NCBI RefSeq assembly: GCF_000003815.2
Contig: NC_049981.1
Location: 767,137-831,136 of the forward strand
From: Branchiostoma floridae
Lineage: Eukaryota > Chordata > Leptocardii > Amphioxiformes > Branchiostomatidae
Length of the DNA: 64,000 nucleotides
Reading direction: 5' to 3'
The notes beneath the pieces are model-generated. The model did no database searches. It was not told the origin of the DNA and saw only the letters and a program-made list of their open reading frames with translations. This document shows, piece after piece, positions 29,484 through 59,271 of the stretch. Within the stretch, counting starts at the first letter, position 1. The number at the start of each line of letters is the position of its first letter. The position numbers were made by a program, and so were the translations under genes.

Positions 29484-31908
29484 TCAATTGGGGCGCTCGC
29501 CGAACGACTGCTCCTCATCAGGGAAAGTTGTCGCGACAGAGCCAGGTTCAGCTGCCACTCCCCCCGTATCACCTGCGATGGTCTGCTGATCGTTGTCAGA
29601 TGCGGTAAGCTCGCTTTCCTCTTGACCATTAGTCAGACCAAGACATGCCATGTTCTCCTCTTCATCGACGAAATGTGCCTCCGGTATTTCTACAGCAGAT
29701 TCGCTTCTATCCATTTTACCTGCTGTTCCTTGCTGACTGCTGGCATCTCTGGTTCGTCCACTGTTCTGAGGAGGCTCTTCTCGACGAAGATTTGCCCTGG
29801 TCTCCTCCGCGTGCACAACGGCAAATGTTGTCATGGGTATTTCTTCAGCAGAGCCGTCTCCTCCTACCGTCCCCTCTGTCTTCCCTGCGGCGGCCGGCAG
29901 GTGGCTGGAAGTTGCGGTCTGCCCGCCGCCCTGATGTACTGCATTGATTTGAGGACGTGCTATGTTCTCGACATCAGCGAAAGTTGTCATGGGTATGTCT
30001 GTAGCCGATGTTACCTCAGTTTTCCCTCCGACGGTATGACGGTTCCTGGTAGTTGCGGTTGCTCCATTGTTCTGCTCAGGTTCGGCGCAACCAAAGCAAG
30101 CCCTGATGGCAGACATTCCTTTCTCCACCACCTTCCCCGTTGCTGTCATTATCAGTGTCAGCAGCAGGCCTTGGGAAGCATTCAGCACAACAAAAACGTA
30201 CTCGACAACCCTGCTGTTCACAAAAGGGTAGATGAAGCCAAGAAACCAAGTGAAGCCCATCAGAAAGCAGATACGCAAGTACACCCAAGCCTTGGTACTA
30301 TTTGAGCGTGACTTTGCAGCGTTGGCTATCGCAAATGACTTCCGTATGGCCAACAAGGCAAAAGTAATCAAGACCGCATTTGCCACAAGGGCACAGAGGA
30401 CAGGAACTCCAAAAGCCAGCAGATTGGCTGTGGGATTGCCGATCCAACAGTCCTCTCCGTAACCCACCCTGACAGAACTGCCGAACTCCACAATCACTGT
30501 GACAAGGACGAAAGGTACCGGCATCAACCAGGTATACAACAGGTACTGGTGCAGTTCGGCTCTTTCTAAAGTATCACCAAACGTAAGGAAGAGATCTATC
30601 GCCAGTGCGTTCGTGGATGTGAAGGCCGTCAGCAGGAAGTAGTGCAGAATGACCGCAAACGCTGCACAGCCCGATCCGACAGGGATCCACACGCGTGTCA
30701 CAAACAGAGATTCGGCCACCACCATGCTTATCGCCATCTGAACCTTCAGCTTTTCCGGGAGTTTTTCCCACTGGCCAGACCTGACAGTGTGGACCACGAA
30801 GGCAAACACGGCTACGGCAGACGCTATCACGAGACCCAGGGTTAACCAGCCCTGGTCAGCTCCCCAACTGTCGGCTACTTTCGTGTAGTTTTTGAAGTAC
30901 TGCAGTATACACTCCCCACAGATCAATGCTGTTGCGTTCAGTATGGCCACCTGCTCTGCTGGGCAGGACACGTTAGAACTCAACAAGTGGACACTACCAT
31001 TGGGAAGGACACGGAACTCTTCAGCCGTGAACGTCAAAGCGGGTTCGCTACAGTTTTGTAAGGGGCTAGTCATGTTTGCTGAGCCACCGCTTCTGTGGGC
31101 GGACGAAGAGATCCGACATGTGTCTGCAAACGGGTCGTATAAAGTGCCAGAGGGACACTGATTGGGACTGTTTTCATCACCCCCATAGGCATTAAAGTTG
31201 AACAAATTAGTCAAGGAGAATCTTGATGGACAGGGTGTATCAAACCCACAGAGCACATTCCGTCCATCGAAATCCAAAAACGAAGCACACAATAGATTTG
31301 TGGTTGCCGTAAGAGAGAGTCCTTCACAAAGAGCACAGTGTACATTTTTGTAAATCTTATGCCCACGGCCCATTGGATAACTATAGGATCTACAGGCAGC
31401 TAAGTCACAATTCTCATTGGAAACATCAGTCCAGAGACATCGCCTCACATACGAAGTGTCTGATGGGGTAAACGCTAGCGTGTTCTTTCCAAAGCAATAT
31501 TCGCTACCAATAATGTTGTTGTACTCTTGTGAACCGGAGGGAATGTGTGAAGACAAGTTCAGTAGTCCGGAACACTCAACTTGGGACTCCCAAACAGACA
31601 CATGTGTCAGAGAGACATTGTTACAAATTGCACAGAATATGTTTCTATAGGGGACTGCATTTGATCCAGTTTGAACTGAGGCATCTTCCACCGGCGTTCG
31701 GTAGACCAGGTCACTCGGGTTGAAGGGATTCACTTGTTTTAAACACTGATCCCTTGTGACGTCATTATTCCATTCGTCAGGGCAGTCAGCAACCATCCAA
31801 TAGGACTCTTTCCCTAAGGGGTCATTTTCACCCCCCTTCGAAAAGCCAGACACGCACTTCCATTTTAGATGATGATGGTCGGGAGGTGTTTGTGTGGAGC
31901 TGCTTCTA
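29484..31908 (-). CDS. terminal exon of the receptor: Cys-rich ectodomain, 7TM core, repeated cytoplasmic tail
   Basis: This single large exon encodes 807 residues and a stop. The first ~345 residues are an N-glycosylation-rich, cysteine-rich ectodomain with two similar blocks ([11 protein letters not shown] and [11 protein letters not shown]), so it holds a degenerate internal duplication. Seven membrane helices follow. Conserved extracellular cysteines are at the top of TM3 (GSGCAAF) and in loop 2 (EDCWIG). The cytoplasmic tail of about 200 residues contains four imperfect repeats of 47-55 residues, opening GKTE, GKTE, GKMD and GDTG. Three carry an IPMTTF-like motif ([28 protein letters not shown]) and the fourth keeps ATTFPDEE. 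The exon enters at phase 2, completing an Asp codon with the somatomedin B exon. Confidence 0.9.
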
Positions 31909-34900
31909 CTGTGGTGCATGTTAAAAAGGTACAATGAATCACAATTATTCTAACTTGAAAGTTCATCTGTGTTGGTAGAATTCATTCTGGATAAAGATAG
32001 AATTAAATTCCAAACACAAAAAAAGGACTTACTCAATTTTTGACTGTGCAACTCTGTCAAGTAATGGACTATCTACTTCTGTAACGTCATTTCTACGTAG
32101 ATCACACACTTGATCAGTGAGTAGTGGATCATTAGTTGCAGAAGTCCGTGGACGTTTAAGCCATCTCCATCTACATTAAATCTTTACAAACTTCTCTTAT
32201 CAGAGACGGCGGGTGCCATAGACTTCCTGCACGATTTAGTCAGGCTAAAAGAGATCTACTTACTCGAAGTCCTCGCAGCAGTCGCCGAAAAAGGTGCAGT
32301 CGTTGTCACAATAGCAGAATTTTCTTTCCTGTTCTTGGTTGATACAGGAATAGTCGCTGTTGCCCGAGGCCTGACCTGAGATGAACGTTGCCGACGTGTC
32401 TACATTGCAGTCCAGTAAGAAAGGATCTAAAAGAGATAATTGAGACGAGCAAATGAAAATGTTGCCGTTGCAGCAGATTCGTCCAAAGAAATCGTATTTC
32501 TTTTCCACCAAACATTATCTTTAGCATCGTGAAGTTTCTGCGATCACGATGTATTTCTACTCATCGTTAGGCCATACCGACTTGATTTTATGGATAACAT
32601 CCTCGCGTGCATTAAATTTCATTTCGTCTTTATACTATATTCCAAATGCGAGACCAGAAAAACTCATACATGACTGTTCTGTTATCAATGATATTTTGTT
32701 GTTCGGTATGTAGCCTCGTTGTACTACTAAGTATGTTCTATATGGCTCTTAGTTGCTACTGGTTGTGGTGCATTGTTCTCTGTCCGATTGTTAAGCAATA
32801 AAGTCCATTCATTCATTCTGTTCACAAAAAAAACTGTGGCCAATAATACCGATCGCTGTTCAATCAGAACTTTATAATTGCCATAGAATCTACCCTCTAG
32901 TGTATGGGACACATAGTCAGGGCATAGGGCCACAGCGCACCGGTTCTCCTCTTTAAACCAGAATGTCAATAACAAAATTAAGTCTCTTACAGTCTTACCA
33001 GAGATGAACATAAGACAAACCAAGCCTGGGAAAGAATTGACTGGATGTTTAGTCCTGTGATTTAGCAGCATTTTTGTTTTTTTTTTCCTCGCGCATAAAA
33101 TTAAAGTTTGTGTGGCCTTGAGTATCAAGTAATGAGCTTTGTTGATGCTATAGGCTTGTTCAATGCCTCTTACCAGCACATTCCATCACGTTGCAGTAGT
33201 CCCACCTCCATGTCGGGTCCGTGGTGTAGCACCAGGGCCGCTCCTTGTTGTCAGGGTTACGGCAGAAGTTCTCCTCCAGGCCTGCATCAGGATGAGCCTG
33301 TGGTGTGTGGGGATGGCTGTGGGGGGACTGGGAGTTCCATCTCTGACACACCCGGTCTCCTGCCCTGTACAGACATACGGTATATTAACGTGTAAAGAGC
33401 CTGTGGTGTGTGGGAATGGCTGTGGGGGAACTGGGAGTCCCATTTCTGACACACCCGGTCGTTTGCCCTGTACAGACATAAGATATATAAACGTGTAAAG
33501 AGCCTGTGGTGTGTGGGGATGGCTGTGGGGGGACTGAGAGTCCCATCTCTGACACACCCAGTCTCCTGCCCTGTACAGATATACGGTATATAAACGTGTA
33601 AAGAGCCTGCTGTGTGTGATGATGGCTGTGGGGGAACTGGGAATCCCATCTCTGACACACCCGGTCTCCTGCCCTGTACAGATATACGGTATATAAACGT
33701 GTAAAGAGCCTGTGGTGTGTGATGATGGCTGTGGGGGAACTGGGAGTCCCGTCTCTGACACACCTGGTCCCCTGCACTTTAGAGTGGAGCGCAGAGTAAC
33801 ACAAATGTGAAGTCACAACTGAGGTTCTATCTTGCTGTGGCCAACTAAAACAGTACTAGTCAGTAGTCCATGCAGGCCAGTACTTATATTCTCCGTTTCA
33901 GTGGTTGCTTCTTACGCTTGGTAACTTTTTGTTGTAGCCCATGCACTACCACGTGCACTTGTGATATATAGATGCTCCGGTGTTGATGCTCTGTAACCCC
34001 TAAACCGTCCAGGAAATCGTACCTGTTAACCCGTCCTGCGTAGCTCCTTCCTCTATCCATTGTGTAGAAGCAACGCGTCGGTGGGGCTGAAAATTTGAAA
34101 ACAGGGGTGTGACGGGGGTAAAATAAAACTTAGACTTTGAACAAATCTTAAACGTGGTATCCTTATATCAAACCCACAAACAAATTAGTAAAGAGAAGTA
34201 TAGCAGAATAGCTTCAAAAGGTGAAAATCACATTATCATAATGTATTTTGCAATATCATTGAAAGAAGATATGATGTATACTTGGCAGCATCGGAAACGT
34301 TAAACTCGAGTTTTGTCTGTTGATGTTCCTAGCTTTTATTCATCAACGTCGTTGAGTAGAAAAAAAACTAAAGTTGAAGTTACCGTCGCAGGCGAACACA
34401 TCATCGCAGTACATCCACCTGATGAGCGGGTTGTCTGTGTAGCACCACGGCCTGTCCTTCCCGTCCGGGTTCCGGCAGTAGTTCCGCTCCAGCCCTGCCG
34501 ATGGGTAGGCCTGGGGAGTGTGGTTATGGGTGTGGGGGTACTGAGATGTCCAGAACTGACAGGAGTTGTCCCGGTTTGCACGGCCCCTGTAGCTTGTCCC
34601 TTTGTCGCGTAGATAGTAACAGACTGCGAACATACAACGTTGCAATGTATGTACATCGTAAATGTTGTCAACTATCCATTTCGTGCAGAATAAAATCTGC
34701 AGGAAAGAGATAATAATCAAAGAAAAATGGATCTAGAATAAAATGGATACTATGCTGGGTCTCCTTGGTGTCGCATGACATCGTAATGCAACCAATTAAT
34801 GTACCCTTCCATAGTGCCTTATGAATGATTTAGTGCTATGTACACTTTAAATGGGTTGTGAGAGATGATTTCCGTGTGTGGAGAACTCACCACAGTTCTG

Positions 34901-37900
34901 CTCATCACTGTTGTCCCCACAGTCGTCTCTACCGTCACATCGGGCGGCCGGGTGGAACAGGGCTCCGTTGTCACAGGCAGAAGCGGCTGGGGAATAGAAG
35001 GGGAATCGTAAGGCCAAACAGAAAAGCCTACATTCCAACGGGGCAGCTTGTACATAAGGCCACAGCAAGTAAATTTTCGCACTCATTAATTTTCGCCTGA
35101 TTTCAGAATTAAAAAAAAAGATATTTTCCTCTGGTCGGTCGGAGTGACACTAGGGAGGTAGCCATGACTATACTCGTAGTTGTAGAACTCGTAGTTGCAG
35201 AACTGACTATACTCGTACTTGCAGTAAACAATGCAGTTTACTCACCACAGGACTCGTCACTCCCATCGCTACAATCTTTTATAGCATCACATACAGATGT
35301 CCAGTCGGCGTCATCTTTATCACATACAATGTGGCCGACAATACAGTCCTTTTTCAGATCCACACATTTTCCATCGCTACAGGACATCTCCCCTCCCCAC
35401 TCACCTGCAATTACCAATGGAAACATCTTAGCTACATTATTGAACTAGTTTAACTGTAATATCCAACACAAAAATTGGACTCACCCAAATTTTCGACTGA
35501 ACAGCACCAGTCTTTGTCAAAGAATGAACTTTCCACTGCTGTCGTGACGTCAGGTTTTGCACATAGAACACGTGATTCAGTGAGCAGTGGATCATAGGTT
35601 GCAGAAAGTTTATTTCAAGTCAAGATTTTAGCTACATATTGGAGCGACAATCATGATAAAAGGCAAGTGAGTACCTTTCGTACGCAAAATTCCTTTTTTA
35701 AGCTCCACTAAAGTGAGGATTTCAAGAAGAATTCTCGGTGAAGTAATGGTGAGATGGGGTTGGGTGAAATTGCTGTGACAAGAGTCGGAATAGTCTTAAA
35801 ATATAAAGAAATGAAAAGATAAAAGAGGAATTGACAAAAACATATACTAATATACAAATGAATATGTATTTGTCATCTGTGCCCATACTTACAGCAGTTC
35901 CGTTCGTCTGTACCATCTCCGCAGTCATCTATCCCATCACACACTTGTGTTTCGTTGACGGTGGCTCCGTTTGGACAGGTCTTTCCATCTGGATGAAAAA
36001 CAGCGTAAGAAAATCGGAAGAGTATCAACATATGTGTACACAGGCAAGTCTACGAAAACCTTATCTAACATGATTCAATGGTCAAAGCGGCTTCTGCATT
36101 GGATGCCCAGTGGTAAAAAAGTTCAGCAATACTAAGCGCTAAATGATTCTGTTCCAGTGCCGAGGCTCCCTCGGAAATTGTATTTTAGTGCTGAACCTTG
36201 TCCCAGCCCTCGTTTTTCAGTGCTGAACCCTTCTAACTCAGCTGTCGTTTTCCAGTGCTGAACCCCTCTCAGCTCTCGTTTTCCAGTGCTGAACCCCTCT
36301 CACTCAGCTCTCGTTTTTCAGTACTGAACCCCTCTCAGCTCCAGTTTTGCAGTGCTGAACCCCTCTCAGTTTCCCGTTTTACAGTGCTGAACCCTCACAC
36401 TCAGCAATCGTTTTTCAGTGCTGAACCTCTCTCAGCTCTCGATTTTCAGTGCTGAACCCCTCTCACCAAGCTCTCGTTATTCAGTACTAAAAACCCATCA
36501 CTCAGCTCTCGTTTTTCAGGCCTTAACCCCTCTAAGCACTGGTTTACCAGTGCTGAACTCATCTCAGCTTCTCGGTTACCAAAGTTGACGCCGCCTTTTC
36601 CAGTGGTGAGAACGCCTTTAATACCACTGGAGGCCTAGTTCTGACGACTATTCAGCACTTGAAATCATTTCACAGTTTTGCTATACACAGACCAATGTTA
36701 GTTGAATACAGCTGGTACACATATGCTGAAGCTATTCTACAACATTTATAGTACATAGTCAACTTGTAACAGAGTGCACTAGTGCTATTTATATAACTGA
36801 GTTCAAGATCCTATTCAAGATCCTTAAGTCTTGGAGACTTGATAACTTTCCTCTACCCATGTTCTTAATGGGAAAGAGTTAGCAGCAACTGTCACGATAC
36901 AGTAAATCCAGAAAAGGGTTGATCTGGGTATTTTTTTATCTGTCTTTCATCTTGTATTTGTATGTCCAAGACGCAATAAAGATGATTTTGATCATCTCTG
37001 TCATTAAGCTTTTATTGACTCATGATTGAAGATTTGCTGTCTTCTTCAAACCAACCCATCCCCTTGCCTTACCACAATCATTTTCATCGCTCCCGTCGTC
37101 ACAGTCCACTATCCCGTCACAAATCACCTCATGCACGTCACAGTCGCCGTCTGTGCAGACCGTCTTCTCAACTTCGGAGCAAGCTGTAAGAACATGTAAG
37201 AAACAGGGCCTGATATAATTCGAAAGCACCATTGTTGTTGCAGACACGAAGTGTTGTCAAATCGCAGCCACTTTTGAAAAAAAAAAACTTTCAGAACTGT
37301 GGCTAATCTGAAATGTTAAAACCTTGATTTTAGTTGATCCATTCTTGAATTTATTCCATTATTATTGGCTTACTTGCATTGTTTTCTGCTTATGATTTCT
37401 ACTTATTAAAGAAGCTATAATTATATAATATCGGCAGTATGTGCAGCCAGTAGGTACCCAAACGACCTTTGTTGTTAGTTGATGAAATATTGTGTTAAAC
37501 TTTCTTTCTTTCTTAGGAATCGGTAAAACACCAGTAAACAAAATGTTATCATGGGAAAATGTATAAAAAGATAGTGAAATCAAATGTGTAAGGTCGGATC
37601 TTTTTGTTTCCTTCTATTGCTGAATAGGTAGTACTGAGCACTTGCCTTGAAAAAGCTTGATCTCGATAATTTCACGTCTATTTTCACGAGGAAACTGAAG
37701 ACGCCACGACTGCCCGGTGGTGAGGAGTCCAGTTAGGTCAAATTCTCCCTGGTCCTGATCTTTAAGTTCACCTCGAATGTATGGCACAACGGTCCAACGG
37801 CGTCCAATCAGACACAAGACTGTGACACCTGGACGTTTGTCATCTTTGATTCCCGTCTCAGAATCGACTTCCCTCTCAAACCAAATACGGACCCTGGATA

Positions 37901-38074
37901 GTTTCATGGACTCCTGCAGATCAAACGTCAGCTGCCAGGTGGCCTCATCATCTCCGCGTCTCCAAGTCGTCTTGAAGTTGTTATCCAGGACGTAGCCGGA
38001 GACCCGTCGGACGCCGTCGTCGTCCAGCCATTCGTCCGGTGTCACCCATGTCGGGTCGGTCTCCACCCAACCAC
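29484..38074 (-). CDS. chimeric multidomain seven-transmembrane receptor (LDLa, kringle, somatomedin B, 7TM)
   Basis: Ten minus-strand exons join in phase: 38074-37646 (galactose-binding-like), 37183-37073, 35988-35893, 35404-35246 and 34986-34891 (one LDLa each), 34623-34384 (kringle), 34086-34023 plus 33364-33174 (second kringle), 32426-32264 (somatomedin B), and 31908-29484 (cysteine-rich region, 7TM and tail). The visible part encodes about 1323 residues. It should lie in the plasma membrane with the modules outside. The 7TM core has class B/adhesion marks: TM6 [10 protein letters not shown]7 NASQGLLL, and the CW pair in the second extracellular loop. No GPS/GAIN cleavage motif was seen before TM1, so it is closer to Methuselah-like or orphan 7tm_2 receptors than to classic adhesion GPCRs. 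The first exon's donor is a GC type (CAAG then gcaagt). The true start and signal peptide lie upstream and are not certain. The ligand is unknown. Confidence 0.88.
32264..32426 (-). CDS. somatomedin B-like exon of the receptor
   Basis: The exon encodes a cysteine pattern ending [18 protein letters not shown], the compact C-x-C, C, CC core of somatomedin B domains; the last cysteine comes from the next exon. Splice phases are 1 in and 2 out. Such domains often mediate protein binding in extracellular proteins. Confidence 0.88.
32427..33173. other. receptor intron with a LINE-tail remnant
   Basis: A short aataaagtcc-(attc)n tail at about 32795-32820 marks a truncated LINE 3' end. Nothing else was recognised. 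Confidence 0.5.
33174..34086 (-). CDS. second kringle of the receptor, split over two exons
   Basis: The exon at 34086-34023 supplies [17 protein letters not shown]. The exon at 33364-33174 supplies [28 protein letters not shown] and [10 protein letters not shown]. The six kringle cysteines are all present. The join is in phase 2. The intron between them carries the 103 bp junction repeat. Confidence 0.88.
33365..33790. repeat. 103 bp minisatellite duplicating the kringle exon junction
   Basis: The junction motif tgccctgtac recurs at 33361, 33464 and 33567, and again at 33670, a constant period of 103; a diverged fifth copy (tgcac) is at 33773. On the minus strand each unit holds an acceptor (tgtacag) followed by about 70 bases of the kringle exon start and then intron. 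As 103 is not a multiple of three, each copy shifts frame. The minus strand is open in all three frames, giving long spurious open frames. Confidence 0.95.
33791..34022. other. receptor intron remainder
   Basis: Nothing was recognised between the minisatellite and the first half of the second kringle. Confidence 0.5.
34384..34623 (-). CDS. first kringle exon of the receptor
   Basis: A complete kringle is held in one 80-codon exon entering and leaving at phase 1. Motifs are [42 protein letters not shown] and WMYCDD. All six cysteines are present. Kringles bind proteins or lysine-like ligands; specificity cannot be read here. Confidence 0.93.
34891..37183 (-). CDS. four LDLa exons of the receptor
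   Basis: Exons 37183-37073, 35988-35893, 35404-35246 and 34986-34891 each encode one LDL-receptor class A module and are phase 1 at both ends. The calcium-cage motif is clear: [47 protein letters not shown] and [16 protein letters not shown]. The third has an extended loop between its first and later cysteines. Symmetric phases explain easy shuffling. Confidence 0.92.
35405..35892. other. receptor intron, nothing recognised
   Basis: Part of it (35505-35610: caaagaatga, acatagaacacgtgattcag) resembles 32060-32140 in another intron of the same gene, so a small dispersed or duplicated segment is shared. Confidence 0.4.
36150..36600. repeat. minisatellite, ~31-35 bp unit (cagtgctgaacccctctcag)
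   Basis: About a dozen imperfect units read cagtgctgaaccc followed by ctctcagctctcgttttc. Some have a four-base insertion (ctcactcag), giving alternating 31 and 35 bp lengths. It lies in a receptor intron. Confidence 0.9.
36601..37072. other. receptor intron, LINE-tail-like remnant
   Basis: A segment ending near 36990 (acgcaataaagatgattttg) looks like an old retroelement 3' end with a polyadenylation signal. No host exon was seen. Confidence 0.35.
37184..37645. other. receptor intron, nothing recognised
   Basis: AT-rich and without repeats or exons that I could identify. Confidence 0.5.
37646..38074 (-). CDS. galactose-binding/discoidin-like exon of the receptor
   Basis: The 143-codon exon carries [28 protein letters not shown] and LSRVRIWF, the pattern of a discoidin-like jelly roll in which aromatic and basic residues lead into a strand ending RVRIWF. 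It ends [11 protein letters not shown] at a GC-AG intron donor. It is more diverged than the two discoidin domains of the plus-strand neighbour. The F5/8 type C assignment is by pattern only. Confidence 0.7.
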
Positions 38075-38221
38075 CTGACGGTTAACAGCATATCGTTAAT
38101 ATTTGTACAGAGGTACGATTACCTACCCACCTCTGCAAACATGAGAAGATGGGGGTGAAGAGAGTGCGTGCTGCGCGCGCGCGAGAGAGAGAGGGGGGGG
38201 GGGGGGGACTACGTACGTCAC

Positions 38222-38304
38222 CTACTGAATTGAATGTGCCGTAGCTATAGGACAAGGACGGTGCAGGTACTAGGTGGAGACACGACAGAGTGCTATCGGC
38301 CGCA
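38222..38304 (-). CDS. possible upstream exon of the receptor
   Basis: An acceptor (ttctcttccag) precedes a frame reading ADSTLSCLHLVPAPSLSYS that exits at phase 1 before gtgacg, matching the entry phase of the 37646-38074 exon. No start codon or signal peptide was found in frame. Confidence 0.35.
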
Positions 38305-39390
38305 CTGGAAGAGAAGAGGGCACTGAGGAGGAGGAAAATAAGAGAGGACTAAAATTTCGTTGATTTTGTTAGGAAAGGTGCAGAAAGCGGACGAAGGGGA
38401 AAGAGTGTGCCAGACGATGGATCAGCAATTCTGGCAGGTATGTCGTGCGGGGGCTTGTCGGGGTCCATGAACGACCGCGCCGACTATGTGCAAGTTGTAT
38501 CATTACGAAATACGCGTCGATAATTTCACGAAAGGCCAGGCCGTACCTTACGTGAGTAGTGTCGTGGCGGACAGAGAAGTCTGGAAGGAGAGGGTGGACT
38601 TGGTCCGGGCAAGCAGCCCGCGATGATGATGATGATGTCGTGGCGTACCCCGCTAGCCTTTATATACAACGGCAAGACCGACTACAATACTACAGGACAT
38701 TTTAGACTATCCGTACAATGCCATACACCAGACCGAACGGCCAACCCCAATATCGTTTAAGGCAGAAAGGCCAGGTCGTCCCTATACATGGGCAGTGGCA
38801 ACAGCAAGACCTACTACAATAATACTACAATAGTACAGACCATATTAGATCTCCCGTATAATACATAAAGACTTTACGGCGCGGTCGGGCATGGACCCCG
38901 ACAGGCCCTTGCATCCCTGAAATGCGTTTGATCGACGCGCATTTCGTGATAATGCGGCTAACACATGGACGGCGCGGTCGGGTATAGACCCCGACAGGGC
39001 CCGGCATCCCTGACTGCGCTTGCTGACAATTTCGTGACATTAACGAGGCGCATTAATTTCGTGATAATGCGGCTCACACATGGACTCATGGTGCCCGACA
39101 GAAACAAGAAACATGTTCCCAAATCCTTGTTATTTAATAGCCAATGTTTCAAAAGACATATAGAACAAATCCTGCACACAGCAGGCGATTGGACCGTATT
39201 AGCCAACCTCGACAGACAAGTGAACTTCCCAGACGAAAAAGCAGTAACAAAATCCTCTATTGTTGTATCAAACATGGTGTCCTATTGTGAGTACAGTATC
39301 ATAGAAATTCATCATGAATAGCTTGTTTCTTACCCGTCAGCGCAACCGAACCTGACAGACAGTGGCACAGACCCCACAGCAGTACAAGTG
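38305..39390. repeat. inverted and direct repeat block
   Basis: The phrase ggcgcggtcgggcatggacc with ccgacagg recurs at about 38878, 38971 and, inverted, at about 38450-38490 (gtcggggtccatgaacgacc). cgataatttcacgaaa near 38517 and tttcgtgataatgcggct near 38942 and 39057 are also inverted to each other. This looks like a rearranged DNA transposon. A TATA-like tatataaag on the minus strand near 38660 could be a promoter, but it sits next to repeat DNA. Confidence 0.5.
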
Positions 39391-39835
39391 ATGTTCTGGT
39401 GTGATACATGGTTCCCATTCTGCTGCAAAAAACTGCTGCAGGTACTACTTTTACCTCAACAGCTTCAGTTTCGTACCAGGCTCCTCGATGGTGCCTTAGT
39501 ATTGTTGAGTAAACCGTGTTCTGATGGCGAAAGTTTTCATTCGACGGCGGCTACATTCCAGGCTAGTTGACTGGCATTCCCTTTTACAGATCGAGTTATA
39601 ACGTTGTAACCAGCCGGTGTACATCAAATAGTTGTGACTATGTTTCTAGCTCGCTTGTCAAAAATTGGTAAAAATGCTATATGTGATCGGTTGGCCACCC
39701 AAATTGCAAAAAAATGTCAACATTATCACCACCCAAAACTGGACTAATCCAAAATTGTTCCTGTCTAAAAGTATAGACAACGCAAAAAATTGTCCATTGG
39801 AAGAATGGACCATTCCAAAACTATCGCATGCAAAT
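39391..39835. other. unassigned stretch
   Basis: No gene or repeat was recognised with confidence. Confidence 0.4.
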
Positions 39836-40127: not shown

Positions 40128-41420
40128 GGGCTGGGTACCGGTACGGTGTACCGGTACAAAACCGGTTTTTCTTATTGTACCGGTCCGGAAAAACCGGACC
40201 TGAAAAAATTTGGTAGACCGGATGTTGGACCTATTAGAACATCAACAGATTATATGATCAGGAATTCACCGGTCGAAAAAAACTAGCAAGAGCGAAGCAG
40301 GGTAGATATACGTTTATGAAGGTTAGACATCCAGGTAAGCAATATTCAAATACAATTCAATCTCTACAACTGGATAAAAAACGGATATTTACTTCCGGAC
40401 GTTTCGAGTGACATCCATCACTCTTCTTCAGCAAAAGCAGAATGAACTAGTCAGAAAAATTCAATACCAGTACAGCTAACTAGAAAAACTGACAAACCCC
40501 ACTCCACCCTCAGACAGAAGTTGGTCCATCCAAAGGACCGTGTACAGAAATGCACCAAATCTGACGTCATCTACAGACTTAAGTGTGAAGGTCCACAGTG
40601 CAACGACACCTACATTGGAGAAACCAGTCAACCACTGAAGGCTAGGTACAAACAACACTGCCGGGCTACAGCAAGTGGATACTCTTCTGCCATCTACCAC
40701 CACACTCAGCTACACCAAGGACATTCCTTCAGACTGGATACTACAGACATTCTTGACCGCGAACCACGGTGGTACGAACGGGGTGTCAAGGAGGCCATCT
40801 ACGAGCGGATCTACAACCCCACCTTGAACCGGAAGGGAGGACTGCGCGTAGAACTTTCCAGTACATGGGACCCCGCCTTGCACAACAAAGGACAATAGTT
40901 TTTTCCTATGGTATTGTCTGACCATAGGAACTATGCTAACATGATTTGCATTTGTGTAACCTTTTGCATATGATCCTAACGATTTAGTGGTTAAACCAGT
41001 TTTTCTAGTTAGCTGTACTGGTATTGAATTTTTCTAACTAGTTCATTCTGCTTTTGCTGAAGAAGAGTGATGGATGTCACTCGAAACGTCCGGAAGTAAA
41101 TATCCGTTTTTTATCCAGTTGTAGAGATTGAATTGTATTTGAATAAAACAGGGTAGATATAGTTTATAGTCATTTTTACAATGTTTTGCGGTCAATCGTA
41201 CAGAGGCAGTTAGTCTTGCAAGAATTTATAATGGCAGTGGGAGTAAAACAAACGACAAAACATGCTTTCTTGTTGCGAAATGGGTCATTGTTTTCAGTAT
41301 ATCGTCCATCCATATGGTTTCACATACTGAATCAGGTCCAGGTTCAGGTTTGGACCTGGACCTGATCTTTTGGACCTGAATCGTACCTGGGCCTGAATTT
41401 TCTTTACCGGTACCCACCCC
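40128..41420. mobile_element. TIR element (GGGTACCGGTA family) split by a Penelope-like insertion
   Basis: The ends are ggctgggtaccggta and taccggtacccacccc. Bodies on both sides match the copies at 2815 and 57435. The Penelope-like insert is flanked by a direct repeat cagggtagatata at 40298-40310 and 41149-41161. Confidence 0.85.
40311..41148 (+). mobile_element. Penelope-like element remnant with GIY-YIG endonuclease
   Basis: About 140 bases at each end are inverted repeats of each other; each contains cgaaacgtccggaagtaaat and tgatggatgtcactcg. Between them lies a 125-codon frame (40521-40898) whose middle reads VIYRLKCEGPQC, TYIGETSQPLKARYKQH and REPRWYERGVKEAIY, the C-terminal GIY-YIG domain of Penelope-like retroelements. 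The reverse transcriptase is absent, so the copy is 5'-truncated. Inverted terminal repeats of this kind are known for the family. Confidence 0.88.
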
Positions 41421-43091: not shown

Positions 43092-43437
43092 TTATCACTG
43101 GAGGTATATGCGGTGACCTTGATGGCAACCAATCATAGCCGTGCAAGTCACGTGATGCATCATCCGCCTGCCGTACTAATAACTTCTGGAGATTGCCGAG
43201 AATATTAATCAATTCTTTGTTGTTTATAGGCAGGGCAGTATGCCTATTGTCCCGTATTGTCACGCATCCTCTGGAGCCTGATAGCAGGAGTACAAACCCC
43301 GCATCATCGTAAGTTAAGGCATTCCAAAGATGTACACGTACATACAACACTGTTGATTACTTTGGCGCCGCGCACTAGCCGTGGTAGACTCTGAGCAAGG
43401 CTAGCCACCTACACCCCCCTCCCACCCCAAGCCAGGC

Positions 43438-45019
43438 ATGGCGACCAGTTTGCTTCTGTTTCTGTTGCTGGGATCTGTCTACCACGCCTCTCTTCAGAGC
43501 GTTGAGTGTCCTCAGTTCGAGTTTGGAGATGAATTCTTCAGATGTGGAAGTAGTGGAGACTGTGTCCTCGCCCAGGACGTTTGTGACGGCGAAGATGATT
43601 GTGCAGAAGGTTTAGATGAAGGAGATTGCTGGAGCAAAGCGTGTCCACAGTGGGCGCCCCCGGACGACTTTTTCAGGTGTGAAAGTAGTGGAGCCTGTGT
43701 CCATCAGTTGTACACATGTGACGGTAACCACGACTGTCCTGACGGTTCAGATGAGACGGATTGCTCGGGCGGAGGGTGTCCCCACCCCGAAGATTTCAGG
43801 TGTGAAAGTAGCGGAACTTGTATCCATCCGGCAAACCAATGTGACGGCATTGATGACTGTGCAGACGGCTCAGATGAGGAAGACTGCTGGACCAAGGAGT
43901 GTCCCGATTCCGACAACTACTTCAGGTGTGAACGTAGTGGAGCATGTGTTTATCAATCGAATACATGTGACGGTAACCGTGACTGTCCTGACTGGTCAGA
44001 TGAGAAGAATTGCTCAGTCGGAGAGTGTCCCTTTGCCGAAGATTTCATGTGTGAGAATAGTGGAGCATGTATCGTCGAATGGAATAGGTGTGACGGTAAT
44101 CATAATTGTCCTGACGGTTCGGATGAAAGGGATTGCTGGAGTGTAGAGTGTCTCGAACCCAACAATTTCAGGTGTAAAAGTAGTGGAACTTGTATCCATC
44201 CAGCAAACCAATGTAACGGCGTTCATGACTGTGCAGACGGTTCAGACGAGGAAGGCTGCTGGAGCAAAGAGTGCACCCAATGGTTACCCTTTGCCGTTTA
44301 CTTCAGGTGTGAAAGTAGTGGAGCATGTGTCCCTGAATGGTTTACGTGTGACGGGCGCTACGATTGTCATGACGGTTCAGATGAGAAGGATTGCTGGAGT
44401 GAAGAGTGTCCCTTTCACGACTATTTCAGGTGTAAAAGTAGTGGAGCCTGTGTCCAACAGTCTGGACTATGTAATGGTTACGATGACTGCCCTGACAGTT
44501 CGGATGAAGACTGCTCGAGTGAAGAGTGTCCCGATCCCGATTTTTTCAAGTGTGAAAGTGGTGAAACCTGTGTCCATCCGTCAAAGCATTGTAACGGCAT
44601 CAATGATTGTATCGACGGTTCAGATGAGAATTGCTGGGACACAGAGTGTCCCTTTAAGGACGCTATAAGGTGTGAAAGTAACGGAGCCTGCCTCAGTCCA
44701 GAACAATTTTGTGATGGACACCGTGACTGCCGGGACGGTTTAGCATTAGATGATGAAGATTGCGAAGAGTGCCCATATCCTAACGATTTCATGTGTGAAT
44801 ACGGTGGAATGTGCATCCGTCCGGAGAAACACTGTGACGGTTTCGAGGACTGTTTTGACCACTCAGATGAGGAAGACTGCTGGGGCAAGGAGTGCCTTGT
44901 GTCCGAGAGTTTCAAGTGTACAGTTAGCGCAAAATGTATCCTTGACACGAAGCGCTGCGATGGGATTGTCAACTGTCACCGCTATGACGTCCGCGACGAC
45001 TCCGATGAGAGTAGCTGCG
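43438..45019 (+). CDS. first exon: signal peptide and 12 tandem LDLa modules
   Basis: A cleavable signal peptide of about 20 residues is followed by 12 LDLa modules of about 40 residues in one exon, which ends at phase 1 (TGC G then gtaagc). Most modules keep CDG-x-x-DC-x-DGSDE-x-x-C; modules 6, 8 and 9 have CNG, module 10 has an insertion ([10 protein letters not shown]), and module 12 is extended ([13 protein letters not shown]). Modules 3 and 6 are nearly identical even in codons, pointing to recent internal duplication. LDLa modules usually sit one per exon, as they do later in this gene. Confidence 0.95.
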
Positions 45020-48000
45020 GTAAGCTCACTTTTTCATAATTTCAATCATTCATGGAAAGTGGGCATTGTAATGTATGAAAATGATTTAACATGGGCATGA
45101 CGAAGAATACAAACTATTACTAGCAAAACTAGTTTTTAGATTTTTAGGTAGCTTTGCTAGTAATATAATATATAGATTATGAAAATTAGGACATCATGTA
45201 CATTTTTAGCAAATGCTACAACAGTCTTCGTTAGCCACACGGCAAACATCAAAATTACTTCACGGAGGATTGTGTACTATGGACTCTTGTTGCTTTATAT
45301 ACATGACTGACAGCTACATTTGTATATTGAAATGTCTTTATATCTATTCATATAGATAAATATTTGAGGGAAGGGGGATACATACATCGACAAGGCAGAT
45401 ATAGATATCTATTGATTAGTCAAATGCATGATAGATAGTGTACGGCTGTGCGGCATGCATAAAAAGCTGTACAAGCGATCCCTAACTAAATAATTCAAAT
45501 GTAAATACCTGGAACATTTTGGCGACAGCTATCAGCTTCTACTCAAAGAAATACATGTATATGTGGATTATGAGAATGTCTGTTACAGAAACGTAATATA
45601 TAGAGGTAAAGAAAGCGCCATTACTGAAAAGCACTAAATAGGTGTTTGGCCACAATGGCTTTGTTTTGTGGATGGCATCTACTGGAGACGTTGATCCCCA
45701 AAACAAATGCGCGAGGACTGAAAAATAAAAAATAAAAAAACACAAAATGCAAAAAAAATGCTGCTAAACCACAGGACTAAATATGCAGTACATTTGTTTC
45801 CAGACTTGGTTATACATACTATATAACCTCCTTGGTTTGGCCTATGCTTGCCCTAGTAGGACTGTACGAGACAAACGTTTCCATTTCAATAATGCTATTG
45901 ATGGGAATAATAGGCATTGTGGCCAAATGGCATGCATTAACCGTGGGAGTAAGGGAGCAAAAGGTCCTCTGGCAAGTATAAACTTCTGATTGACCAGAAA
46001 TGCTGTTGGGTCACATGTAGCCACAGTTTTTTCAAGAGAACAGGCGAAAAATCAATTCGCGCGGATATTATCCATAAAATTAAGTCAGTGCGGGTTTAAT
46101 AAGAAATACCTAGTGCTGAAACCGTTCTATGATATGATGAGGTTTCAGTTATAAGACCATTTGTTACTGAAACTTACTGCATGCGGGTTATGAAGATACC
46201 TGTCCAGAAAGAATTACACTTTTGGTGATAAGAAAGAACAGATGCCGATTGAAACTTGTTAAGAGAATGGCAATCATTCGCGACTTAGGAAAGGTTTTTA
46301 CTGAACACGTTGTCAGACCAGTACCCGACAGAACCGGTATGAAATTCCAAAGTCAAAGATAAAAATGTAGAATTATCCGTATGCTCTGGCAACGGCCATT
46401 TTTATTTTGTGTTTTTCATTTATTTCCATGAGGGAGGGGGTGAAGACGGAGAGGCTTATGTTGTAGTTGTGGCGTTTTTAACGGATAGGCGTATGATGTA
46501 ATTGTGGCGTTTTTAGCATTTTGATTTTTAATTTTTCATTATTATGTTTATGAAATGTAACACCTTTTTGATTTTTCATTATTATGTTTATGAAATGTAA
46601 CACCTGGGTAACACCAAGGGGGGGGGGGGGGGGGGGGGCTCAGTATCCGGCAGTCCACCGGGACAAATTTATGGCTTCGGAGCCCGGCCGGGGGTGCATT
46701 CCTGAAGGGCACCGGTGCCTTAGTCTTACGTAATAGGCAAGAAGTGTCTTTTTACCTTCCTATTATGCAATATGTGCATAAAGTAAAGAAAAGGATATTT
46801 GTTAACAATTATTACAAAAACAATTCAACAAATATCATTTTCTTTGCTTTTCCATGGGTGCTTTTTGGTGCATTTGTGTTTTTCTGATGCACAAGTAGTA
46901 TGGTATCATCAATCAATAGTATTCTCAGAAAAGCACCCATTGGAAAGTAAAGAAAATGATATTTGTCAACAATTATTACAAAAAAAATACAACAAACATC
47001 ATTTTCTTTACTTTTCCATGGGTGCTTTTTGATGCATTTGTGTTTTTCTGATGCACAAGTAGTATAATATCATCAATCAATAGTATTTTCAGAAAAACAT
47101 TGCTGTTTGGTGAAGTTTGGGCACAATGATATTACATGGCACAACTCCCTGGCTAGTGATATTAATGTCTGCACACATTGCATGATGGGAAGGTAAAAAG
47201 ACACTACTTGCGTAGTAGGAAACACGACAGTGGAGTGAAAAGGCGTTATATGTTGTACAGTGTGTACCAGTGTCGAGTTCCCGTGTACAAACAGATGTGT
47301 GGCACCATCTGGAGTGTGCGACGGAGTCCCTGACTGTGAAGACGCATCGGACGAGCTGCTGTGTCGTGAGTTTTATGCAAATCACAATTAACCCTTGTCC
47401 TGCTGGCTATTTAATTTTGTGGCCAATTTAACCTCCCAGAGCTGATGGCTTCATCAGATAACTAAAACTTGACCTGTTCTGTACTGCTGCAGATTTACTC
47501 CCCCATTCGATGGACTTTGCAGTGGTATGCAACTTTTACATGAGGAATACCCAAAACTCATAACAATACAGCTCAGCATGACAAGGGTTAAATAGGTCCA
47601 TCCCGAATATAAACGGGCTCAGCAGGAAAAAGGTTTTAACAATGTAGTGCTTAAATGGTATGATGTAGCGTGGTGCAAGTACATTTATATATAAGCCCCT
47701 ACATCAGCCAACTTTCAGTAGCTTCAAAATGTGACATTTTACTTATCGCATGCAATGCTCTGATGGCATTTGCAATGGTGTAAGTTACTTCTTAACAATT
47801 CGCCCATTGAGAAATAAGACATAGGACATGAATGCTTGTCTAATGATTAGATTGCCAAACTACATGACTGAAGTGATAATATAAAATGAACTTTTGATAA
47901 ACTGCACAAGAAGATTATGTTTTAGGTTAAATCTTTGACTGGCTTAGTATATATATATATTCTTTGTTATCAGAATAACTATATAATAATAATAATGCTG

Positions 48001-51000
48001 TGGATAGATCCCCATGATATTTTTGCAGATAAGGTGTTGATGAGACGAAGGTCTTGCTTGATAATGAGTCTCCAAGCGGATTTCTTGGGTACTGCAGGGA
48101 ACTGATGTCTGTTCTATTTACATTTCCTATAGAGTCCTGTGTGGATAGAGGACTGTGGCAGTGTGACAGCGGTGAATGCATCAACAACTCCTCGGTCTGT
48201 GATGGAGACAAGGACTGCTCTCCTGGCACAGACGAAGAGAACTGTCTCGGTAGGTTCTTTCGAAAAAAAAAACCTACTCTCCAAGCAGAGGTCAGGGTCC
48301 AACTGTTGTTTGACGTTTTTTTAGTCGTTTTCATCGGGCTTTCTATTTTGTACACTTTCTTGATGTCTCGCGGCCGCAAAAGCCCGATAAAAATGACTAA
48401 AAACGTCAAAAATCATCCGGAGTCTAACCTCTGCTTGGAGAGTAGGTTCTTTCATGTTTATACAAGTTACAGGTACTTCAAGTCAAAACATCATACAAAA
48501 GTTTTTATTTTTCTATGTTTACCATTCATTCTGTATGTTGCAATTAGCCCACGGGCAAGAACTTGCAAAATAAACTTTCATTACTATCATTTTGTTGTGT
48601 ACATATGACCTGTGTTCAACCCAGTGGGTATATATGTACAATAAAACTCATCATTCTTTTATTTATTGTTTACAGCACCCTGCAATCGTCTCCAGTTGGA
48701 GTGTGACGGTGGATGCCTGCCGAAATACCGCGCCTGTGACGGGCTGGAGGACTGTGCAAACGGGGAGGACGAGATGAACTGTACTGTTGGAGGTCAGAAC
48801 CGATCAACATGTCTTTATCATACACCACGGAAAATAGCTGGCACAATTGAAATTTCACCCACTCTAGCAATGTCAACCCAATGTTACATTCTGTAAAACA
48901 CAGACTGGGAAAATACCTAAGCTAGCAAGTTCTTAGCCTCCATTACAGTCTTGGAACGGGTTTGGTATTTTGGGGGGGGGGGGCGTTAGTTCGCGTTTAT
49001 CAACCTTGGTTAGGTTCTCTCATGCCGGCGGGAAATGGAGTTTGCTGAGGAAGGGAGTTTGCCGTGAAAGGTAGTTTTGCCCCGTTTGGAAACAGTACAG
49101 GCTTCGAAACAGGGCGAAAATACCTTACACTGCAAACTCTCTTTCCCGGCATTAGAGAACCTAGCCAATCGTTGAAAATCGCGAACCACCGCCCCCAATG
49201 AATATCAGTCCCGTTCGAAGACTGCAATGGAGGCTATCAAGTTCTCACTTTTGTGTCACCGATCTTTCTTCACTTGGAGCTAAAATCCGCATTGCAACGC
49301 ATCAACAACCCCCGTCTTTGCCCAATTGTTTTAGTTAGCAACAGTCATCAAAGGTGACGTTATATATCATAGATGATTGCATAGTAACTACCTATGAACC
49401 AACCTGTTTTCTTTACAATTGAAATTAAAGAAAGAAATTCCCCCGCACAGGTTGTGGTCCTAAGCAGTTCCCCTGCGCGGACGGTACCTGCCTGATGGAG
49501 TCTCAGCTGTGTGACAACCGGACGGACTGTAGTGAAGGGGAGGACGAGGAGGACTGTGGAGGTAGCTCTTTGTTCTCTGTGATGGCCTCTTCTCTCCGAA
49601 ATCCGAAAAGAGGAGGCCTGCCTCACCACATTCTATTAACCTATAAACATCAGCAGTATCAGCAGTATTCTCCAACCAGCACAGTGGCGCACCCTAGGTG
49701 GCCACTTACACAAACTACAACCCATACTGGCCAGAACTGACACCTATAAGTGATTAAATTTAGTGTTTTTTCTACAAACAGTTATACCAGAGTGGAACGC
49801 TCTGCCTGGCGTGGGAAATGTAGATGTAGATGTAGATGTAGATGTAGATGTAGATGTAGATGTAGATGCAGATGCAGATGTAGATGTAGATGTAGATGTA
49901 GATGTAGACTCATGTGTGACCCAAGGGCTTTGAAACGGAGATGTGTGCCGGGCTTACGCATCACAATGTGATGTATGGCAACTTTAGCTTTAGATGTAGA
50001 TGTAGCTAGATGATACGCCAAATAGCATTTTTTCCAGCATCGGGATATTACTTTTGGAAACGTCCAGACATTCCAGCTGCAGATAGCATCACAATCTTTC
50101 ATCAGTAACACAAAGGAGATCTTTTGTACTGAAGACAGCAATTCACAACCTTGCTGATAGCATTTTGCATTGAAATCTTTTTTAAGTGGGTAGGACATAC
50201 GTGAAATACATCATACTTTAGGAATGCATAAACGATTTCCATATTTGATCGCAGGAAAGTTTCTAAGTTTGAAAAGTCTCATTGTCGGATTCTTTCCTCA
50301 CAGATGTCCTACCTCCTGGATTTCCGCTTGGTTTGGCGAGTCGGTACATTTCCGATGTTTTCATCACTGCCAGTTCCGAGTACAAGCCGGAGTTCGCCGC
50401 CTCCCAGGCAAGGCACACGCCTCCGACTGCACCGGGGTACTGCTGGGTACCGAGTACAGTGGAGGACCAATGGATCCAGGTACACGATATCCTCATTATC
50501 TCCATGAAAAATAGAGTTACTGGTTTTGATGTGAATGATGTTTGGAGTATACCTTGAGATCCGCTGGATGGCTTGGGATGCGGTTGTTTAGCAGGTGGAT
50601 AGGTGCGGTGATTGTGGCAGGGATGGTCGGTTTTGAGCACCTGTTGATTGACATTGGTACTGCAGTAGTAGAAACCCGGGAAGGGGGGTTGTGTTGTTTG
50701 TCAGGTCCGCGCTTGAAACTTCTGTAACATCTGAACGAATTATCCTATGACCAAAAATATTTCAGAGAATGTTGTCAAATCTAAGAAATTTTCAAAAGAT
50801 CTGAATTTTAGGAAAAGTCGGGAAATTTGGTGGCATTTGCGTAAGCCATTCTGACGTTATGCGACATGAAAGTTGGTGCGAGCCTCAAAAGACCGCCCTC
50901 ACCGTTTGTATAGGGTTAAGCCGTGCCGTATTGCCCTAGCAGACTGAATGATATAATCGTTCATCTGTTGTATGTTTGACTGCAGGTTTACTTTGGTAAG

Positions 51001-54000
51001 ACGACTAACGTAACCGGTGTGGTCATCAGTGGAGGCGGCTCGAACTGGGACCTGGGTAGTTGGGTGACGTCATTCACTCTGGCCTTCAGCATGGACGGCG
51101 ATGTGTGGACACCGTATGGAGGCATCGGCAAAGATGTGCAGGTACGGGGGATTGTGTCGACAAGGATGTTAGAAAAAGGTCCAAGGTTTCGTGGCATAGC
51201 ATACGTTATATGCATTACCTCTGAACTAACAGTAGGAAATGGTATCCGTATAGCATCGCATCACTATTGTGGGCCATGTCCCATGAGTATAGTCCTCGGA
51301 TGCAGATATCTATATTTCTTCATAGGCGATTTTTTTTTTGTTTTCCTGGTGTATTCTTCTTCTTCTTCTTGACCGTATTACATCTGTAACACAAAAATCC
51401 ACAAGAAGAAACTGAATTTGTCTGGAGCAATTGCGTACATTCCATTCTATGCCAAAAAGTTCAAAGAACATGTTTCTTATCGCAGTAATTTAATGAATGA
51501 AAGAAGTTACATCAATCATGTTAATTTTCATTTTCTATATTTTTGGCCACGCCTCAGGGGCGAGACTGGTCGTGTAGTATTATGTGGGAGTACAGTCAAA
51601 CCTGCCCGAGCGACCACCTCTTCTCAGCGACCACCTGGCCATTTCGACCACTTTTTCTCGGTCCCGATTTATTTTCCCATTGACGTAAGCATTAAGCGAC
51701 CTTTTCTCAACGACCACCTGGCCAACGCGACCGCGACCAGCCCAAATTGGGACCCATAACGACCGCATCATTTTCAAAATTGAGGTTTTCATCGATTTTT
51801 GATGATAACTAGCATGATTTTGTGCCGAAATCGGCCAGATTTCGTCGGATTTTGGAGTTAAATTTACAGTTTACAGTGTGCCTGTTGTATTTGAGATTAA
51901 AGACCTCGCTTCTTTGCGTGCGTGCAGTGTGCTTGCTTTATGCCATTAAGCACAATGGAAACCATTTATACTTTCCATCGGGCATGTTTAGAGTCGATAC
52001 TCTTCTCAGCGACCACCTGTCCAAATCGACCGCTTTTTTCCGGTCCCCCGGGTGGTCGTCTTGGACAGGTTTGACTGTAGCTTGAGATAAAGGCCGGAAG
52101 TGTTCTGTATAATATAACCTTACCTGATTTTGTTCTGTATCTTATGTCTTAACCTGAACCTTCCTTCTCGCATCCTTGAGAAGGTTTTCCAAGGAAACCG
52201 AGACCGGTACAACAAGGTGAGTCGTCCACTCCAAGTCCCCGTGACGTCACGCTACATCCGTCTGTATCCAGCCGGCTACGAGGGCTGGGTTGCCATGGTG
52301 ATGGAGGTGTACGTCACAAACGGTTAGTTTGTTGAACCATTTCCAACCGGACCATAAGTGTTTCACTTAGAAAATGTAGGAAATTTTTCAATACCTTTCT
52401 ATTAGGGGTGATAAGGAACTTTTTGTTTGTAGCATTTTGCAACGGAAGTATATACCATACAAGTCCTCTTGAAAAATATGTGAAAAATATTATTGTATTT
52501 TGAAGATTTTGTGGATAATTGCATTATAAAGGCTAATACGATATTTTCGTTCGTCGATGAAGATTAGACATCCAAATAATAAGATATGCCAAAAAGCAGT
52601 TACTCAAGCAACTGGATATGATTTCGGAAACGGTCCGACGTTTCAGATAGCATCTTTCGTCAGTGACACTGAAGTGACCTGGGAGAAACTGGTCTTTTAT
52701 ACCCTAACTATGAATGAAGACAATTTTAGATGTCCAGTATGAACCATTGGAAGACAAGTCTATATTGTCTTACATAAACGATATTTTCGTTCATTTGTAG
52801 ACGAAAACGTTTGGCTGGCACAGGAGGAGCACGTCCCATTGGGAGTTGGTATTGATCCGGACAATCCCGAGGCCGCTCCGAAGATTCCCGACCTCTATAT
52901 GACCGCTTCATCGCGAGAGGGCGATTTCTTCCCATGGCTGGCGCGTCTGAACAACGGGAGGGGGCAGGGGTGGGGAACGGGCTGGTCTCCAGCGGTCCGG
53001 GATGACCTCGAACTATGGCTCCAGGTAATTCTTCTCCTAAACACAGTTCGGGTGTTTGAGTATCCACATGTATGAATGCCCAGTTAGCCTGACTAAAATC
53101 GCGCCCCAAGCGGCCGGTCCTACAATTGCCGCCGCCCTAAGAGGGGAGGGGGTAATTAACCCCAGCCAGCGAGAGATTGTGTAAACACAGGCTACTGGTC
53201 AGCTTGCTCTATAGGTTACTTCCTTTAGCATATGGTGAGTACCGCTGCATGTGTCGTGGCATGTATATATAAATGTAAACGAGACTGCGCGCGCGGTCTC
53301 AACCGAGACGGGGGTCGATACCGACTTCCAAGCACCTTTGACCCATTGCTGACGTCACACTTCCACTCTGGATATGTGACATAGGCTTTGCTATTAAAGC
53401 GCTTTATTTTGTGTACGGGTATAAAGTTCAAAATTGTAAAACAATGTTGACTACCGTCACAGATCAACTTACATTCGAAGTGGATGCGTGGTTATTATCA
53501 TGTGAAGGCGTCACTTGCTCTCAGACTACAATGTCTTCAATTTCAAACTACTATATCTTTTACTGAATCGATTCAATCATCTCTTTTCTTTTGATTTACT
53601 ACGTTCATTTCTGTATAATATCTGTAACAATATCTATTTAATATTTGTTATATTTGTGTCTGTTTGGTGGTACTAGTGAAAAGGTGACCATGTTAAGAAA
53701 TTTTCAGCATACCCACCAATGTTGTGGGAAAGAACAAGAAGTGAATAATTAGGTAAATAAATAAATACGCGTCGAGCGTGGCGTAACTGGTAGAGCGTTC
53801 GGCTCGGAATCTAAAATTTATATAGGTCCTGAGCTCGATACCCGCCGTGCCCCCGACGTTGTGCCCTTGGGAAAGGCACTTTACACGACCTTCTTCACTT
53901 CACCCAGGTGTAAAAATGGGTACCTGACTTCGGCCGGGGAGGTAAAATCTACCTTTACCTTCTGTCTGTACCGTGTATGTGGCACTGTTAATATAAGTTG

Positions 54001-59240: not shown

Positions 59241-59271
<31 letters not shown>

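Follow-up and report, generated by a model that had tools for sequence, protein, structure and literature searches.

Our analysis concerns a 64,000-nucleotide stretch of the Branchiostoma floridae genome (contig NC_049981.1, positions 767,137 to 831,136; hereafter the window, numbered from its first letter), the minus strand of which probably carries a single gene, encoding a receptor of the cell surface that belongs to the 7tm_2 (adhesion/secretin) superfamily. The receptor would fit the group of amphioxus receptors with kringle and somatomedin B (SMB) domains described in 2008, with a shuffled ectodomain and with a coupling to the membrane core that does without the G protein-coupled receptor (GPCR) proteolysis site (GPS). 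The locus is most likely a real and intact receptor gene, and the receptor most likely adds a member to a known group instead of founding a new receptor class. The result is a gene model, resolved to its exons, of a receptor from the group surveyed in 2008. The locus illustrates phase 1-1 exon modules cleanly, and the feature of some further value in this receptor is the unnamed cysteine-rich domain adjacent to the membrane.

When the splice sites were re-derived and the exons joined, the gene model comprised 11 exons on the minus strand (39418..29484; Table 1), with a coding sequence of 4059 nt for 1352 residues, in which the sole stop codon is the terminal one. The phases close at all ten exon junctions, and nine of the ten introns are of the GT-AG type, the remaining one being GC-AG (donor 37645, after exon 2). 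The original prediction, which was made from the letters of the sequence, had proposed ten minus-strand exons with closing phases between 38074 and 29484; all of them were present and in frame when joined, and an extra upstream exon (exon 1, 39418-39334), absent from that model, was found to have a phase that fits exon 2. Six consecutive exons, namely those for the galactose-binding-like domain, the four LDLa domains and kringle 1, are phase 1-1, as is the exon pair of kringle 2 when counted as a single unit. Huang et al. (2014, PMC4284660) reported that lancelet exon shuffling is very active and favours promiscuous domains and exons of phase 1-1.

The domain search of the spliced protein strongly confirmed two of the predicted components, the kringles and the 7tm_2 core, and gave moderate support to the LDLa and SMB domains, but the predicted galactose-binding domain was matched weakly. 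The kringle family was found in two stretches with a Pfam expectation value (E) of 9.4e-41, the joined kringle 2 covering profile positions 3-79. LDLa was found in three stretches of the whole protein (E 5.9e-10), and when the exons were searched one by one, all four LDLa exons matched, three of them above the curated cut-off. The SMB exon alone reached 23.3 bits against a cut-off of 23.1. For exon 2 alone, the F5_F8_type_C_2 and F5_F8_type_C families were matched at E 0.023 and 0.025, both below the cut-off, and a comparison with the PDB gave five rows at E 1.2-1.6, too weak to count, two of which were an F5/8C protein (E 1.2) over the Pfam-matched stretch and three of which were unrelated. 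The galactose-binding (F5/8C-type) identity of exon 2 would thus be regarded as suggestive, not proven. Together, the three minus-strand frames without splicing matched kringle, LDLa, SMB and 7tm_2 only, with no missed domain in the introns at E up to 0.1, and the three frames of the opposite strand of the receptor stretch gave no Pfam match at the same threshold.

In the spliced protein, the 7tm_2 family was matched at E 1.7e-16 over profile positions 37-249 of 250, and because the alignment covers these positions, the first helix of the seven-transmembrane (7TM) core rests on hydropathy. Simple hydropathy gave merged peaks in which seven were not cleanly separated, and the seven helices, as well as the cysteine pair between the third transmembrane helix (TM3) and extracellular loop 2, were assigned by eye. 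All of the 22 PDB sequences that matched the core at E <= 0.01 were adhesion GPCRs, the best being ADGRL3 (2.6e-15). Raising the threshold to 10 gave 26 rows, the four added being two of dihydroxyacetone kinase (0.099), the calcitonin gene-related peptide receptor of class B1 (0.5) and a bacterial effector (2.4). A secretin receptor (class B1) was rejected as a candidate, with no hormone receptor domain at E <= 1 and the first B1 receptor appearing only at E 0.5. The cytoplasmic tail (29487-30134, minus strand) contains, by eye, a degenerate threefold repeat, each copy of which follows a G-K-T/M stretch.

By its core the receptor belongs to the adhesion/secretin 7tm_2 superfamily, and by its kringles and SMB it fits an expansion of Adhesion GPCRs in amphioxus, for which ten genes with kringle and SMB have been described (Nordstrom et al. 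2008, PMC2246102). Three features of that expansion were found here, namely kringles, SMB (in the exon alone) and an adhesion-type 7tm_2 core. An animal gene that joins kringle and SMB to a 7TM core would by itself suggest a lancelet. The same paper also lists LDLa and discoidin among the N-termini of amphioxus Adhesion GPCRs, states that mammalian Adhesion GPCRs lack the LDLa, CUB, I-set and TNFR domains, and describes amphioxus as the only source of GPCRs with kringle and SMB. According to a 2025 paper, Kringle is among the domains listed for Adhesion GPCRs of choanoflagellates (PMC12716839), and therefore kringles in such receptors are no longer unique to amphioxus. A combination of kringle and LDLa is also known from lancelet proteases, listed in a paper on the chordate plasminogen system (PMC6337849). 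The earlier suggestion that the module order marks an undescribed class of receptor does not stand beside the ten-gene kringle/SMB expansion published in 2008 and the SMB-bearing 7tm_2 receptors known from lancelet, acorn worm, sea anemone and planarian. We did not come across the exact order in the literature searched, outside of which lay Figure 2 and the supplements of the 2008 paper, but the text of that paper lists LDLa, kringle, SMB and discoidin for amphioxus Adhesion N-termini and kringle with SMB marks the ten-gene expansion, which makes a truly undescribed class with this module order highly improbable.

The family to which such receptors are assigned differs between papers. Amphioxus is without methuselah receptors according to PMC2246102, in disagreement with which de Mendoza et al. 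(2016, PMC4768249) placed lancelet genes in the Mth/Mthl family and found SMB in Mth/Mthl homologues of B. floridae, S. kowalevskii and N. vectensis. Methuselah_N was not found in the present receptor by Pfam, which does not exclude the wider Mth/Mthl family, because this domain was found in arthropods only (PMC4768249). The receptor was not placed among the Methuselah-like receptors, membership of which is a matter of the 7TM tree. Methuselah-like receptors have been listed for sea cucumbers as well (PMC7042368), and SMB is present in both planarian PARF1 and cnidarian NvX (Zamanian et al. 2011, PMC3261222).

Candidate first exons were scored by hydrophobicity and by donor score, with donor weights entered by hand, and thresholds are given below in that order. 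Between 38.09 and 42.0 kb there were at least 69 candidates, and among those listed two passed 1.8/4, both using the donor of exon 1 with different start codons. Over the whole window and both strands, five phase-1, two phase-0 and one phase-2 candidates passed 1.8/4, and at 1.98/4.99 two phase-1 sites passed and none in phase 0 or phase 2. Exon 1, with its good donor, scored 1.99 and 4.999; it is a rare kind of site at the place where one is needed, though it is not unique. The top site of the window by both measures (2.43 and 5.321) ends at 32999, between kringle 2 and SMB, where a start codon, a hydrophobic end, a good donor and phase 1 make up a candidate first exon (32999-33072, minus strand). 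Its final 27 nt (33025-32999) could alternatively be, by eye, a phase 1-1 micro-exon flanked by good splice sites.

This site raises the alternative of two adjacent genes or two promoters, in which a secreted galactose-binding/LDLa/kringle protein (exons 1-9) would be followed by an SMB-7TM receptor with the first exon ending at 32999. In keeping with it, the candidate has the right phase and the highest scores in the window, exon 9 read through its donor hits a stop within a few codons, and SMB-7TM receptors have been described with no mention of kringles in the available parts of two papers (PMC3261222, PMC4768249). However, the phases of exons 9, 10 and 11 close, the minus strand from exon 9 to exon 11 is free of AATAAA and ATTAAA words at which the gene of a secreted protein could end, and kringle with SMB on 7TM receptors has been published for amphioxus (PMC2246102). 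Furthermore, an SMB-7TM receptor encoded separately would require a signal peptide, because the first transmembrane helix (TM1) is preceded by a region of 345 residues (546-890) that contains 21 cysteines and eight N-glycosylation sequons, and the peptide ending at 32999 makes a poor signal by eye, with about 15 mostly polar residues that include two prolines, then a hydrophobic run of about eight residues that ends at the junction, and no good cleavage site. Two genes or two promoters are unlikely in our view, and one gene, as modelled from genomic sequence, appears more likely than a split between kringle and SMB.

The cysteine-rich region itself matched no Pfam family above the cut-off, the sole row being CBM_14 at 0.8, and no PDB relative was better than E 0.7; the two sequences of SATB1 found at that value were taken as chance and rejected as relatives. 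Two YxNxxCAxC motifs were seen by eye in the region (30873-31908). With the motif spotted by eye and the split point set before the shuffle test, the internal repeat was short, with a local score of 55 that was reached by one of 1000 shuffles.

The absence of a GPS site, as originally remarked, was borne out by Pfam searches at three levels: neither the spliced protein (E up to 1) nor any of the three minus-strand frames read without splicing (E up to 0.1) gave a row for GPS, GAIN or a hormone-receptor domain, and none was obtained for GPS/GAIN in the ectodomain alone at E up to 10, as far as the filters of the search permit. No GPS-like pattern was seen by eye ahead of TM1. These results bear on the possibility that the receptor is an adhesion GPCR of the typical self-cleaving kind, with a GAIN/GPS that has diverged too far to be picked up by profiles. 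Such a receptor would agree with the 7TM core, which among solved structures is nearest to adhesion GPCRs, and with the GPS reported for many amphioxus Adhesion GPCRs (PMC2246102), but every profile search and the inspection of the residues before TM1 speak against it, and we regard it as very unlikely. Since neither GPS nor GAIN was found, the receptor was kept out of the canonical adhesion GPCRs (class B2). A broader proposal is that the cysteine-rich region acts as a coupling module, so far without a name, and that it characterises a class of animal SMB receptors which have no GPS and do not cleave themselves. To this class lancelets would have added LDLa, kringle and galactose-binding exons by shuffling, in an arrangement that has yet to be depicted; this proposal we consider rather doubtful.

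Several points weigh against our reading of a single GPS-less receptor gene of the 2008 group. The gene model rests on genomic sequence, the second signal-like first exon at 32999 stands before SMB in the right phase and outscores exon 1, and six AATAAA/ATTAAA words occur in earlier introns of the model, including one that follows kringle 1. The SMB match is weak in the whole protein (17.4 bits, E 0.0057, below the cut-off), for which no galactose-binding row was obtained at Pfam E up to 1 either. In addition, the absence of GPS was read from a profile search of one sequence with HMMER filters that discard most weak matches, and the fit to the ten-gene clade is based on module content and core type.

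For a single gene of this kind, the following course of action may be proposed. The signal-like peptide, which is indicated by the sequence, would direct the N-terminus to the outside of the cell and the receptor to the surface, where the galactose-binding-like domain, the four LDLa domains, the two kringles and the SMB would form a disulphide-rich adhesive ectodomain. By the families to which they belong, these modules may bind extracellular proteins or glycans, and the cysteine-rich membrane-proximal domain may couple the ectodomain to the 7TM core. Since GPS and GAIN were not detectable, signalling probably proceeds without the release of a GPS-tethered agonist; it would probably occur via G proteins, by a ligand- or matrix-induced movement of the uncleaved ectodomain. 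The module set probably arose by shuffling of exons for which the phase 1-1 pattern is observed. Kringles of the plasminogen type bind lysine via an Asp-x-Asp pair. The corresponding stretch in the two kringles of the receptor reads Asp-Gly-Lys and Asp-Asn-Lys, and therefore classical lysine binding is not expected. The SMB of vitronectin binds uPAR and PAI-1 (PMC6337849), contacts that the SMB of the amphioxus receptor may or may not keep. The idea that the receptor reads several extracellular ligand types had been drawn from module names only.

Within the gene, the intron before the second exon of kringle 2 contains a repeat array (33294-33775) with 4.7 copies of a 103-bp unit (90% match). 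The array holds extra copies of the acceptor and start of exon 9 at 33673, 33570 and 33467 and a more divergent one at 33771. These four decoy acceptors were rejected as extra kringle exons, and since each of them reads into a stop, the copies look like dead partial exon duplications. Another array, of about 12 copies of a 31-bp unit, lies in the intron that separates the exons of LDLa 1 and LDLa 2 (36183-36574). No paralogue of the receptor was seen in the window: 20 of the 40 tblastn pieces lay outside of the gene, all of which matched query residues 181-343 only, that is, the LDLa stretch with a little flank. In viral contigs, five stretches matched the pattern searched for and none was confirmed as a relative of the receptor.

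Elsewhere in the window (Table 1), the open frame at 8961-10733 resembles the gene of a voltage-gated potassium channel contained in one exon. On the plus strand, beyond the open frame that begins at 43405, further LDLa stretches were found near 48.2, 48.7, 49.5, 60.0, 61.2 and 62.5 kb, and F5/8C pieces near 51.0, 52.2 (0.0032, below the cut-off) and 54.1 kb.

Table 1. Exons of the receptor gene and neighbouring features, in positions of the window
Feature	Position	Strand	Description
Exon 1	39334..39418	-	Start codon and signal-like peptide, residues 1-28; donor GTAAGA; 3' phase 1
Exon 2	37646..38074	-	Galactose-binding-like (F5/8C-type), phase 1-1; GC donor follows
Exon 3	37073..37183	-	LDLa 1, six Cys, phase 1-1; Pfam E 3.1e-5
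Exon 4	35893..35988	-	LDLa 2, short, four Cys, phase 1-1; Pfam E 3.9e-7
Exon 5	35246..35404	-	LDLa 3, enlarged, eight Cys, phase 1-1; E 6.6e-5, just below cut-off
Exon 6	34891..34986	-	LDLa 4, short, four Cys, phase 1-1; Pfam E 2.3e-7
Exon 7	34384..34623	-	Kringle 1, phase 1-1; Pfam E 1.5e-22
Exon 8	34023..34086	-	Kringle 2, first part, phase 1-2
Exon 9	33174..33364	-	Kringle 2, second part, phase 2-1; E 1.9e-22 for exon alone
Exon 10	32264..32426	-	SMB, phase 1-2; E 8e-5 for exon alone
Exon 11, first part	30873..31908	-	Cysteine-rich membrane-proximal ectodomain, residues 546-890
Exon 11, middle	30135..30872	-	7tm_2 core, about residues 891-1136
Exon 11, end	29484..30134	-	Cytoplasmic tail, about 216 aa, and stop codon
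LDLa-rich gene(s)	43405..63037	+	Head to head with receptor; may run past window edge
Open frame	43405..45036	+	Ten LDLa stretches after signal-like start (by eye)
Open frame	8961..10733	-	591 residues; BTB_2 8.8e-25, Ion_trans 4.5e-38
Retroelement remnant	54976..56262	-	Reverse-transcriptase piece, RVT_1 3.5e-10
Retroelement remnant	40446..40895	+	Fragment; weak GIY-YIG match 0.0024, below cut-off

Among known systems, the ten-gene amphioxus expansion (PMC2246102), compared by its description only, shares with this receptor the adhesion-type 7tm_2 core and the N-terminal kringle and SMB. The SMB-bearing Mth/Mthl homologues XP_002608881 (B. floridae), XP_006821924 (S. kowalevskii) and XP_001628572 (N. 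vectensis) share SMB and 7tm_2 and likewise have no Methuselah_N (PMC4768249); unlike the present receptor, they are described with no mention of LDLa, kringle or galactose-binding modules in the available text of that paper. The adhesion-like receptors NvX of Nematostella and PARF1 of Schmidtea share the N-terminal SMB, of which they have a single copy (two in one planarian case), with kringle and LDLa not mentioned in the part of the paper at hand (PMC3261222). Adhesion GPCRs of choanoflagellates have the kringle in common with the amphioxus receptor but differ from it by a listed GPS; SMB was not found in the accessible text (PMC12716839). Vertebrate adhesion GPCRs, of which ADGRL3 is the best match, differ by the GPS/GAIN that was not detected in the amphioxus receptor, but share with it the 7TM core (E 2.6e-15) and a long modular N-terminus.

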